Position numbers and translations under genes: made by a program
Notes under the pieces: generated by a model
Told to the model about the DNA's origin: nothing
The model's input: the letters and a program-made list of their open reading frames with translations, nothing else
Databases searched by the model: none
Source of the DNA: an uncultured bacterium
Lineage (GTDB): Bacteria > Bacteroidota > Bacteroidia > Chitinophagales > Chitinophagaceae
NCBI GenBank assembly: GCA_903921675.1
Contig: CAIXQW010000161.1
Location: 1-46,858 of the forward strand
Direction of reading: 5' to 3'
Length of the DNA stretch: 46,858 nucleotides
Shown: positions 2,658 through 26,943 of the stretch, piece after piece
How the letters are laid out: each line of letters opens with the position of its first letter
Numbering within the stretch: position 1 is the first letter of the stretch

Positions 2658-3686
2658 CTATTGCAAAATTAGTTTATTTGTCCATTGCTGTTGATTGCTT
2701 TTTAATGTCAAAAAGTAAATGCCTTTCGGAAAATCGAATAATGATAATTCTAATTCATTATTCATATTTTTTGTAGAAGTATATTTTTTTACTATTGTAC
2801 CATATACATTATAAATACAAATTTCCATAAAACTATTCTCTTGTAAAGTTTCCAAATTAATTTTCACAGTTTTTTCTGTTGGATTTGGATAAAAGTTGAA
2901 AAGTTTGCTATTTTGTATAGCAGAAACAGCAGTAGGAAAATTCTGAAAAACATGAATATAATCTACAAACATGGTATCTGGAAATACAGAATTTGTTGCA
3001 GGACTTCCGGGCCAATTGCCGCCTACAGCCATATTTAAAATAATAAAAAAAGGTAAATGAAAAGCAGAAGTATTATTAATACTATTTTTTATAGTGTTTT
3101 TGTAATACACATTATTATCCAAAAGCCATTTAATAGAATCGGCACTCCATTCTATACCATATAAATGATACTGGGTAGCATTGCAAAATGCACTATTGCC
3201 TGCTTGCACATGGCCATTATTATTCCAATGCATTGTTCCATAAATTTTATTTTCTGTATTGATATGTTCCAAAATATCTAACTCGCCACATGTTGGCCAA
3301 CTCACTTGATTAATATTATTGCCTAACATCCAAAAAGCTGGCCATACTCCTTGGGTTTGTTGCAATTTAATTCTTGCTTCTATTTTTCCATAGGTCCAGG
3401 TTTGAAGATCTTTACTTACCATTCTAGCAGATGTATAATTACTGCCTTGATAGTTTTCTTTTTTTGCAATAATTAATAAATTGCCATTGCTAACAAGGGC
3501 ATTATCTGCTCTATTGGTATAATACTGCAACTCATTATTACCCCAGCCTCCATCTCCAATTTCAAATTTCCAATTTTGGAGTTTGATACTATTATTAAAA
3601 GAGTCAGCCCATACTAAGTTCCAATTTTGAGCATTTACATTTGCACAAATAGTAAGGTGAAGGATGAGAACCAAAAATATTTTCAT
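2658..3686 (-). CDS. Secreted family 16 glycoside hydrolase (beta-1,3-glucanase/laminarinase type) with T9SS sorting domain
   Basis: A signal peptide (about residues 1-19, ending ANVNA|Q) is followed by a GH16 jelly-roll domain (about 22-250). Its catalytic signature GELDILEH supplies Glu135, Asp137 and Glu140, which fits the ExDxxE pattern. The C-terminal 75 residues (FYPNPTEKTVKINL to KLILQ) form a type A T9SS sorting domain, so the enzyme should be exported through T9SS and attached or released at the cell surface. The likely substrate is a beta-1,3 or mixed-linkage glucan; the exact linkage cannot be read from sequence. ATG at 3686 is preferred over an upstream in-frame TTG at 3701 because the signal peptide begins there. 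No other polysaccharide-utilisation genes are adjacent. Confidence 0.88.
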   Translation of the reverse strand: MKIFLVLILHLTICANVNAQNWNLVWADSFNNSIKLQNWKFEIGDGGWGNNELQYYTNRADNALVSNGNLLIIAKKENYQGSNYTSARMVSKDLQTWTYGKIEARIKLQQTQGVWPAFWMLGNNINQVSWPTCGELDILEHINTENKIYGTMHWNNNGHVQAGNSAFCNATQYHLYGIEWSADSIKWLLDNNVYYKNTIKNSINNTSAFHLPFFIILNMAVGGNWPGSPATNSVFPDTMFVDYIHVFQNFPTAVSAIQNSKLFNFYPNPTEKTVKINLETLQENSFMEICIYNVYGTIVKKYTSTKNMNNELELSLFDFPKGIYFLTLKSNQQQWTNKLILQ

Positions 3687-23024: not shown

Positions 23025-23696
23025 ATGGCTCTAATGCAAGCTTTCCAAACCTCCATCGGCAAAAAACTAGTGATGGGTTTTACAGGATTATTTTTGATTT
23101 CTTTCTTGGTGATTCATGCTACCGTAAATGGTATGATTTTCTTTAACGACAATGGTGCCATGTTCAACGAATGGGCAAAATTCATGAGCCATAACTGGAT
23201 TGTTCGCTTTTTGGAATTAGGTTTATTTGCTGGATTTGTATTACATATCATACAAGGTTTTTCTTTAACACTAAAAAACCAAAAAACACGCAATACCAAA
23301 TATGCTGTAAACCCAGGTAATGCTACAAGCAAGTGGTATAGCCGTAGCATGGGTATTTTAGGTAGTTTATTATTAATCTTTTTATGTGTGCATCTTGGCC
23401 AATTTTGGTTAGAAACCAAGGTAGACCTTTACGGCGCGCAAGACCCAAGCTATAATTTATATGCAGAATTGCAAGAAACATTTGAGCATCTTTGGGTGGT
23501 AATTGTTTATTTAGTGGGTGTTGTAGCTTTGGCTTGGCATTTATTACATGGCTTCCCAAGTGCATTTCAAACATTAGGAATCAATAATTCTAAATACAAT
23601 GGCATCATCAAAATGCTAGGAACTGCTTTTTCTATAGTAGTGCCTCTGTTATTTGCATTAATGCCAATTGCATTGCATTTTCATTGGTTAAACTAA
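23025..23696 (+). CDS. sdhC: Succinate dehydrogenase cytochrome b subunit (b558 type)
   Basis: A 223-residue membrane anchor of complex II. Five hydrophobic helices are visible, and His residues in or next to them (VIHATVNG, FVLHIIQGF, CVHLGQFW, HLLHGF) can ligate the two haems b of this single-subunit di-haem anchor. It passes electrons from SdhB to the quinone pool. It is the first gene of the operon; sdhA follows after 39 bases. No separate SdhD is present, as expected for this type. Confidence 0.92.
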   Translation: MALMQAFQTSIGKKLVMGFTGLFLISFLVIHATVNGMIFFNDNGAMFNEWAKFMSHNWIVRFLELGLFAGFVLHIIQGFSLTLKNQKTRNTKYAVNPGNATSKWYSRSMGILGSLLLIFLCVHLGQFWLETKVDLYGAQDPSYNLYAELQETFEHLWVVIVYLVGVVALAWHLLHGFPSAFQTLGINNSKYNGIIKMLGTAFSIVVPLLFALMPIALHFHWLN

Positions 23697-23735: not shown

Positions 23736-25709
23736 ATGGCTTTAGAAAGCAAAGTGCCTGTAGGCAATATGGATGAAAAGTGGAGCAAGTATAAAAGTAC
23801 CTGCAAACTTGTAAATCCTGCTAATAAAAGAAATATTGATATTATAGTTGTAGGTACTGGCTTGGCTGGTGCATCTGCTGCTGCTACGTTGGCAGAGTTA
23901 GGCTACAATGTAAAAGCGTTTTGCTTCCAAGATTCTGCGCGTCGTGCTCATAGCATTGCCGCACAAGGTGGTGTGAATGCTGCTAAAAACTATCAAAATG
24001 ATGGAGATAGCGTTTATCGTTTGTTTTACGACACTATCAAAGGTGGCGACTATCGTGCAAGAGAAGGTAATGTGCATCGCCTAGCAGAAGTAAGTGGTAA
24101 TATTATAGACCAATGCGTTGCGCAAGGTGTACCTTTTGCTCGCGAATATGGTGGAATGCTTAGCAATCGTAGCTTTGGTGGTACACAAGTACAACGTACT
24201 TTTTATGCGGCTGGGCAAACTGGTCAGCAGTTGTTATTAGGTGCTTATAGTGCTTTGAATCGCCAAATTGGTTTAGGAAAAGTAAAAATGTATGCTCGCC
24301 ACGAAATGCTAGATGTAGTAAAAGTAGATGGTGTAGCGCGTGGTATTATTGCTAAAAATTTAATTACTGGTAAATTAGAGCGCCATGGTGCACATGCAGT
24401 ATTACTTTGTACTGGTGGATATGGCAATGTATTTTTCTTAAGTACAAATGCCATGGGTAGCAATGTTACAGCAGCTTGGAAAGCACATAAACAAGGTGCG
24501 TTTTTTGGCAATCCTTGTTTTACGCAAATTCATCCTACCTGCATTCCTGTAAGTGGAGATCATCAAAGTAAGCTAACCTTAATGAGTGAAAGTTTGCGCA
24601 ATGATGGTAGAATTTGGGTACCTAAAAAACAAAATGATACGCGTAAAGCGGTAGATATTCCAGAAGAAGAAAGAGATTATTACTTAGAAAGAAGATATCC
24701 TGCCTTTGGTAACCTTGTACCACGCGATGTGGCTAGCCGTGCTGCTAAAGAGCGCTGCGATGCTGGCTATGGTGTAGGTACAAGCAAAATGGCTGTGTAT
24801 TTAGACTTTGCAAGTGCAATAGAAAGGTATGGTAATAAAGAAGCTACGAAACGTGGTATGCCAAATGCCGATAAAGCTACAATCATTGCTATGGGTAAAG
24901 AGGTAGTGAAGGAGCAATACGGTAATTTGTTTGAAATGTATGAAAAAATTACTGGCGAAAATCCGTATGAAATGCCAATGCGCATTTATCCAGCGGTGCA
25001 TTATACCATGGGTGGTTTATGGGTAAATTACGAATTGCAAACTACCGTAAAAGGATTGTACGCATTAGGTGAGGCTAATTTTAGTGATCATGGTGCCAAT
25101 CGCCTAGGTGCAAGTGCTTTGATGCAAGGATTAGCAGATGGTTACTTTGTAATCCCTTATACAATTGGTAATTATTTGGCAGATGAAATTCGCACACCAA
25201 AAATAGATATAAACCAAGAGGCATTTGTGCAAGCAGAAAAAGCTACACAAGACCGCATGGAAAAATTAATGAACATTAAAGGGCAACATACTGTAGACTA
25301 TTTCCATAAAAAATTAGGATTAATTATGTGGGAGAAATGCGGTATGGCACGCAATGCAGCTGGTCTTACAGAAGCAGTTGCAGAAATTCAAGCCTTACGT
25401 GCAGAGTTTTGGAAAGATGTAAAAATACCAGGAAGCATTAACGAGTTCAATCCAGAATTAGATAAAGCAGGCCGCGTTGCAGACTTTTTGGAATTGGGAG
25501 AATTGATGTGTAAAGATGCATTGCAACGCGAAGAAAGTTGTGGTGGGCATTTCCGTGAAGAGTATCAAGAGGCAGATGGCGAAGCAAAAAGAGATGATAC
25601 CAACTTTATGTATGTCTCCGCTTGGGAAAACACCGGTACAGACTGGACATTGCACAAAGAGAGTTTAGATTACGAAGTAATTCATCCAAGCCAAAGAAAT
25701 TATAAATAA
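23736..25709 (+). CDS. sdhA: Succinate dehydrogenase/fumarate reductase flavoprotein subunit
   Basis: A 657-residue catalytic subunit that oxidises succinate to fumarate (TCA cycle) using covalently bound FAD. The dinucleotide motif [19 protein letters not shown] is at about residues 38-57. [14 protein letters not shown] supplies His72, the usual FAD attachment residue. The active-site segment near [12 protein letters not shown] and the C-terminal [16 protein letters not shown] are typical of the Bacteroidota/epsilon long form. It sits between sdhC and an inserted small gene, with sdhB 478 bases further on instead of immediately next. Confidence 0.95.
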
Positions 25710-25711
25710 TA

Positions 25712-26170
25712 GATATATTGTTGAGGTGTTATATTGTTTTATTGTTTTAATAAAATGGAAAAAAAAATACTTAACACTAAATGACATTGAATCTTATACT
25801 AGATCTTTTAAATTAAGTAATACAATTTGGGAAATAATTATCCTATGGAATTCTTTTGCAAAAGATACAATAGGCAAACAATTTGTAAGAGCTGCTGACT
25901 CCATTTCGGCTAATATTGCTGAAGGATTTGCAAGGCATTCTAAAAAAGAAAAAGTTCATTTTTATAGAATAGCAAAAAAATCTGTAAGTGAATGTTTGGA
26001 TTGGAATCAAAAAAGCAAAGTCAGAAAATTAATTACAGATGACGAGTATAATTTAATTTTCTTAGAGCTAAAAGAATTTCCCAGGTTACTAAATACCTTA
26101 ATTAAATATACTAATCAAAAATTAAAACAATAAAAAACAATTCAACAATACATCCATATAACAATATATC
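25712..26170 (+). repeat. Complementary arms bracketing the four-helix-bundle gene (IVS-like element)
   Basis: The left arm (25712-25751) reads GATATATTGTT, a 10-base spacer, ATTGTTTT, then ATTGTTTTAAT. The reverse complement of the right arm (26121-26170) reads GATATATTGTT, a 10-base spacer, ATTGTTGA, ATTGTTTTTT, then ATTGTTTTAAT. The outer 11 bases and the inner 11 bases are exact, and the right arm has one extra ATTGTT unit. In RNA the arms could pair and loop out the gene. The stop codon of the enclosed gene lies inside the right arm. Confidence 0.7.
25726..26133 (+). CDS. Four-helix-bundle protein of the 23S rRNA intervening-sequence (IVP/S23) family
   Basis: The domain begins at YLTLNDIESYTRSFKLSN and contains GKQFVRAADSISANIAEGFAR and ECLDWNQKSKVRKL, the hallmarks of the family first found as ORFs in 23S rRNA intervening sequences and related in fold to Avd of diversity-generating retroelements. 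The molecular role is unknown. The open frame begins at GTG 25726, whose first 14 codons are AT-rich arm sequence. The natural start is ATG 25755, but nine A's (25759-25767) put it one base out of frame; with eight it would read MEKKYLTLND. The gene splits sdhA from sdhB in the same orientation and must be transcribed with them. Confidence 0.85.
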   Translation: MLYCFIVLIKWKKKYLTLNDIESYTRSFKLSNTIWEIIILWNSFAKDTIGKQFVRAADSISANIAEGFARHSKKEKVHFYRIAKKSVSECLDWNQKSKVRKLITDDEYNLIFLELKEFPRLLNTLIKYTNQKLKQ

Positions 26171-26187
26171 AATAAAACAATTCAATC

Positions 26188-26943
26188 ATGCAACATTATA
26201 CAATGAATTTAACTGTAAAAGTTTGGAGACAAGCTAACACAAATGCGCAAGGCAAATTTGAAACTTATCCAGTAAAAGATATTTCTAGCGAAATGAGTTT
26301 CTTAGAAATGATAGACGTTTTAAATGATCAATTAATTATAGAAGGTAAAGACCCTATTGCATTTGACCACGACTGCCGCGAAGGAATTTGTGGAATGTGC
26401 AGTATGTATATAGATGGTAGAGCACATGGTCCGTGGACTCAAAATACTACTTGCCAATTGCATATGCGTGCTTATAAAGATGGTGATACTATTACTATTG
26501 AGCCTTGGCGCGCAACAGCCTTTCCGGTAATCAAAGATTTGGTTGTAGATAGAACAGCATTTGACAGAATACAACAGGCTGGTGGATATATCACAGTAAA
26601 CACTGGTAATGCAGTAGATGGTAATAGTATTCCTATCGAAAAAGCAAATGCCGATGCAAGCTTTGCTGCTGCTATGTGCATTGGATGTGGTGCATGTGTG
26701 GCTGCTTGTAAAAATAGTAGCGCAATGTTGTTTACCTCTGCCAAAGTAAGCCAGTATGCTTTATTACCTCAAGGAGAAATAGAGCGCAGTACCCGCGTAC
26801 TTAATATGGTGGCACAAATGGATAAAGAAGGTTTTGGTAGCTGCACCAATACTGGCGCTTGCGAAGCTGAATGTCCTAAAGGAATTTCTATCAGCAATAT
26901 TGCTCGCTTAAATAGAGAGTATATAAATGCGAGTTTATCTTAA
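26188..26943 (+). CDS. sdhB: Succinate dehydrogenase iron-sulfur subunit
   Basis: A 251-residue electron-transfer subunit linking SdhA to SdhC. The [2Fe-2S] ligands are in [11 protein letters not shown] (Cys63, Cys68, Cys71) and Cys89. The C-terminal ferredoxin domain has [11 protein letters not shown] (Cys164, 167, 170, 174) and [14 protein letters not shown] (Cys219, 225, 229) for the [4Fe-4S] and [3Fe-4S] clusters. All ligands are present, so the operon should be functional despite the insertion upstream. The start could be ATG 26188 or the in-frame ATG 26203. Confidence 0.94.

Follow-up and report, generated by a model that had tools for sequence, protein, structure and literature searches.

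The sdh operon described here raises the question of what a small gene enclosed by complementary repeats is doing between sdhA and sdhB. The window, a 46,858-nucleotide contig (CAIXQW010000161.1) of an uncultured Chitinophagaceae bacterium positions 1 to 46,858, carries the sdh features described next on its forward strand. An sdhC-like gene (23025-23696) is assigned as the cytochrome b subunit by position and had no Pfam match at E 0.001. It is followed by sdhA (23736-25709), the flavoprotein subunit, with Pfam FAD_binding_2 and Succ_DH_flav_C matches, and further downstream by sdhB (26188-26943), the iron-sulphur subunit, with Pfam Fer2_3 and Fer4 matches and a conserved start at 26188, the N-terminus being kept among relatives as MEHYxMNLTxKxW. 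Between them lie a 5′ arm (25710-25752) that adjoins the sdhA stop codon, an IVP/S23 four-helix-bundle open reading frame (25726-26133), and a 3′ arm (26121-26187) that ends at the sdhB start codon.

The identity of the intervening gene, proposed in a sequence-only reading of this DNA, is borne out by profile searches. The frame matches PF05635 (23S_rRNA_IVP; E 4.8e-24, 85.1 bits; HMM match 25783-26094) and TIGR02436 (four helix bundle protein, 90.9 bits). PF05635 is the sole Pfam match of the sole gene in the element, which has no tyrosine (Y1) transposase, unlike REP/RAYT. Positions 25600-26300 had no match in Rfam, and the element is inserted between sdhA and sdhB rather than in rRNA; the protein had no defence-family match in PADLOC. 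The frame is open from GTG 25726. The likely native start at ATG 25755 is shifted out of frame by one base and is followed by GA9. This A9 run (25759-25767) could reflect a true frameshift or a site of slippage, or it could be an error of assembly. The frame here either starts at GTG 25726, within the 5′ arm, is frameshifted in this copy, or slips. The window's own genome has nine PF05635 matches. Because ATG 25755 is out of frame and other copies in this genome contain stops, the sdh copy may be decaying.

The arms are built of octads, of the type NNATTGTT in the 5′ arm and AACAATNN in the 3′ arm, which is the reverse complement of the 5′ arm. Positions 25709-25748 and 26134-26173 are 75% complementary. 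The outer 11 bases pair exactly (GATATATTGTT, 25712-25722, with AACAATATATC, 26160-26170), as do all 15 of 15 at the inner end (TTTTATTGTTTTAAT, 25737-25751, with 26121-26135). Exact ends of 11 bases had been claimed on both sides; this is correct for the outer end, and the inner one is 15 bases long. The ATTGTT unit named in the same reading does build the arms of the sdh locus and does not hold as a general unit, since each locus has its own. Folding the arm region, as that reading had proposed, paired the arms in the native sequence of 25690-26200 (z -3.3, with 0 of 100 shuffles equally good), and both arms joined by a short loop gave a folding z of -7.4.

Could such arms be ordinary AT-rich spacer, complementary by chance or composition? 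The window is AT-rich and contains 68 ATTGTT/AACAAT sites, which would favour this. Against it, flank complementarity reaches 25 at the IVP gene, more than at any other of 35 genes in the window (median 15), and at 20 the arm score exceeds that of dinucleotide shuffles (13.6 ± 2.0, p = 0.0065). The arms also have an 8-base period, and no segment of the window other than 26132-26193, in the 3′ arm, shows strong 8-base periodicity. A 7-base-periodic segment at 3543-3585 falls inside a reading frame and shows no evident arms. Control loci refute the chance reading: complementary flanks were found at 2/30 cold-shock genes (5.6% between loci), compared with 64/95 IVP loci of relatives. Such arms are thus not a general property of AT-rich gaps; the opposite outcome, which the earlier reading had named as fatal to its proposal, did not appear. 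We consider a chance or compositional origin highly improbable.

The armed layout extends far beyond this locus. PF05635 genes occur in 47/61 genomes of the relatives set, with up to 16 per genome. Collecting these genes and aligning their flanks, a comparison put forward in the sequence-only reading, gave a complementarity of at least 20 at the 64 loci above and in 4.6% of between-locus pairs, with medians of 22 within and 13 between loci. The same score was reached at 47/73 named IVP loci (11% between loci), drawn from Bacteroidota, Poribacteria, Chloroflexi, Planctomycetes, Acidobacteria, Proteobacteria, Nitrospirae, one cyanobacterium, and CPR. Arms in these sets are called by an alignment score that detects none at about one-third of IVP loci, and the pooled statistics are optimistic since pooled loci share ancestry. 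Clear heptad arms were seen in two of the four cyanobacterial plasmid IVP copies read, one of them between cas6 and cas4. On a Pseudanabaena plasmid (L400, 1273-1954), the gene between these two is an IVP gene flanked by long AAAGCTA/AAAGCCA arms.

IVP loci also share a position within operons. With neighbour genes called by a simple ORF rule, the IVP gene lies between two co-directional genes at 79/95 and 63/73 loci (83-86%), versus 11/29 controls. Host gene pairs include sdhA/sdhB, nuoA/nuoB (L009), argC/argD (23 loci), groES/groEL, and cas6/cas4, and the upstream stop and downstream start codons often directly adjoin the arms. In the window's own genome, a truncated armed IVP gene sits between nuoA and nuoB (L009, 1445-1669). 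This recurrence of armed IVP loci in operon gaps supports the proposal that an element like the rRNA intervening sequence (IVS) resides in protein-coding operons.

Across loci the arms follow a common grammar. Each consists of roughly five imperfect 7-mers in a row, with the consensus TNAGYTW in the 5′ arm and its complement in the 3′ arm, and a period of 7 was the best lag in 92/126 IVP arms, while the gene control was flat. The polarity is fixed, the AG:CT counts being 440:148 on the 5′ side and 179:518 on the 3′ side. Most often a 3′ arm has five units (68/168) and a 5′ arm four to five, and shuffled arms almost never reach four. In a non-redundant set of 44 loci (protein identity below 50%), the five-unit mode is only suggestive, since 3′ arms with five units (11/44) are accompanied by 14/44 with three. 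The IVP relatives 2gsc and 2rld in the PDB have five chains each, and an IVP-family protein of Xanthomonas is reported to be a homopentameric toroid (PMC4990558). A match between five arm units and five IVP subunits is therefore no more than suggestive.

Arm units differ wholesale by genus. At argC-IVP-argD the arms stay complementary although the unit is TAAGTNN, TTAACGC, AAAGCTT, or TTAGGCT. Where argC-argD loci share a unit, arms match other loci as well as their own partner, and in a register test the own partner came first chiefly at loci whose unit is unlike that of the others. Exact arm pairing is therefore not required, as same-unit loci show no preference for their own partner arm. 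In some Flavobacterium IVP copies, each side has its own hairpin in place of one long stem.

The element is gained and lost while its protein is conserved. The dN/dS of the IVP gene is 0.063 in Flavobacterium and 0.10 in Pedobacter, indicating purifying selection. Among 107 groES-groEL junctions, mostly from the single genus Flavobacterium, 20 contain the element, and its scattered distribution implies that the tree saw 17 changes, of which at least four are forced by well-supported branches. The whole element is present or absent between species pairs whose groES/groEL flanks are 95-98% identical; for example, L283 and L335 have 98% identical flanks, one with a 521-base element and the other with an unrelated 82-base gap. 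In the closest pairs, neither a target duplication nor an exact empty site with an unchanged gap was found, and the whole gap sequence was replaced. The Flavobacterium groES-groEL gap (L223-L232, L282-L399) is a hot spot whose occupant changes between close species: it may be an IVP element, a single heptad array, an armed gap with no gene, or a member of an armed class rich in C (CCCCTCCC...GGGGTGGGG).

At the sdhA-sdhB junction itself, a comparison that the sequence-only reading had proposed showed no such gene in the gap of most readable relatives. The one other IVP locus found at this junction (L032) belongs to another subfamily and is enclosed by arms of its own, built on another unit, TTTGAAAA, so that no same-site gene without arms, the other observation named as counting against the element, was seen. 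Two further genomes (G014 and G031) have GxxExxY genes there. Since the window's genome and L032 hold different IVP subfamilies and these two hold GxxExxY genes, the gap has been filled repeatedly and independently. In two relatives, L011 and L023, it holds yet another gene, roughly 900 bases long, that on visual inspection resembles a glycosyltransferase.

GxxExxY/PDDEXK_3 (PF13366, TIGR04256) resembles IVP in being a small gene set in complementary repeat arms, at the same sdhA-sdhB junction, and differs in its unrelated fold, arm period of 9, and less strict operon placement (57%). Complementary flanks were found at 18/29 of these genes versus 3.9% between loci, and the period of 9 peaked in 19/38 arms. 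The arms at L129-L158, L134, and L135, the sdhA-sdhB junction included, have CACAGAG/CGCAGAT-like units with a 9-base period. The two families could represent a minimal class of operon-gap element in which a small protein sets the repeat period of its arms, the IVP pentamer reading five 7-mers, one per subunit, and PDDEXK_3 reading 9-mers. This generalization is tentative and, in our estimate, possible rather than probable. The TRAP ring, which reads its own triplet array, offers a likeness for an IVP pentamer on a 7-mer array.

What, then, do the arms do? We regard 25710-26187 as a copy of a gained-and-lost operon-gap element, consisting of 5′ arm, IVP gene, and 3′ arm, whose arms would be cis ends recognised by the IVP pentamer for spread or upkeep, a reading to which we give a probability of about 0.5. 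The arms are favoured as IVP's own recognition ends because their period tracks the gene family, their polarity is fixed, and the protein is under purifying selection. The homopentameric IVP ring may recognise them in single- or double-stranded form, with each subunit perhaps reading one unit, and may thereby help the element to spread or to persist. Inserted in the sense direction into an operon that is itself transcribed, the element would not obviously need its own promoter. If the arms pair in the mRNA, the gene could be looped out and the upstream stop brought near the downstream start, which might allow essential operons to tolerate the element.

The sequence-only reading suggested that the arms may pair in the sdh mRNA and that the stem could be cut, as RNase III does in 23S IVSs, giving sdhCA and sdhB parts or changing the SdhA:SdhB ratio. 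The strong predicted stem and the strict sense orientation of IVP loci within operons fit this proposal, as do the 23S rRNA IVSs that carry an IVP-family gene, whose complementary ends are cut by RNase III (PMC4990558). The arm mismatches do not: selection on a sense-RNA stem is expected to leave G:U mismatches, and these are not in excess over A:C (118:170 and 101:149), the GU fraction being 0.41 and 0.40 in the two sets and 0.455 between unrelated loci. The separate hairpins on each side at some loci also argue against it. Such selection is therefore unproven and the cutting step lacks support. We consider the processing account rather unlikely; RNase III processing is not what visibly shaped the arms and, by analogy with the rRNA IVSs, might still occur. 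The mismatch pattern fits copying at the DNA level, as would be expected if the arms were passive selfish DNA, that is, REP/MITE-type tandem-repeat hairpins that grow by slippage or template switching at operon gaps and carry IVP genes along, with DNA copying maintaining arm identity. Gene-less single arrays and gene-less armed gaps at groES-groEL (L372, L341) and the turnover of arm units as a block are consistent with this. Purifying selection on the IVP protein, a period that follows the gene family (7 for IVP, 9 for PDDEXK_3), and a polarity relative to the gene that is fixed across phyla are not, and we judge passive spread unlikely.

The armed IVP element has several partial counterparts. 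REP/BIME palindromes with RAYT transposases, and MITEs, are short inverted repeats in intergenic gaps, some of them gene-less. The IVP element differs in having no tyrosine transposase or terminal consensus and in arms that vary per locus, and its gene encodes a four-helix bundle without known enzymatic activity, unlike RAYT. Avd of diversity-generating retroelements is a related four-helix-bundle pentamer that acts on nucleic acid; no reverse transcriptase or template/variable repeats were seen in the IVP loci read. Cyanobacterial STRR heptamers are 7-base tandem repeats between genes, as in IVP arms. The TAACTGA repeat of Beggiatoaceae (PMC4679880) is one fixed 7-base repeat between genes, mostly direct. 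Unlike IVP arms, neither it nor STRR is known to have been described as complementary arms enclosing a gene. The 23S rRNA IVSs with an S23p/IVP ORF (Coxiella, Leptospira) share the protein family, complementary ends, a transcribed essential RNA host, and sporadic presence. They differ in that the sdh element lies in a protein-coding operon gap and has arms that are polar arrays of period 7/8, the unit being particular to each locus. In the open-access literature searched, no account was found of arms flanking IVP genes at sites other than rRNA; as the search took in few subscription papers or bioRxiv preprints, priority is uncertain.

IVP/S23 genes are common and unexplained small genes in Bacteroidota that have so far been studied mainly as rRNA insertions. 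The cross-phylum rule of operon gap, sense orientation, and polar, locus-matched arms makes IVP function directly accessible to tests of binding and of transcripts. It also bears on the interpretation of operon organisation and subunit ratios at the sdh, nuo, arg, and groESL loci. A poorly understood family thereby gains a concrete home and testable partners.
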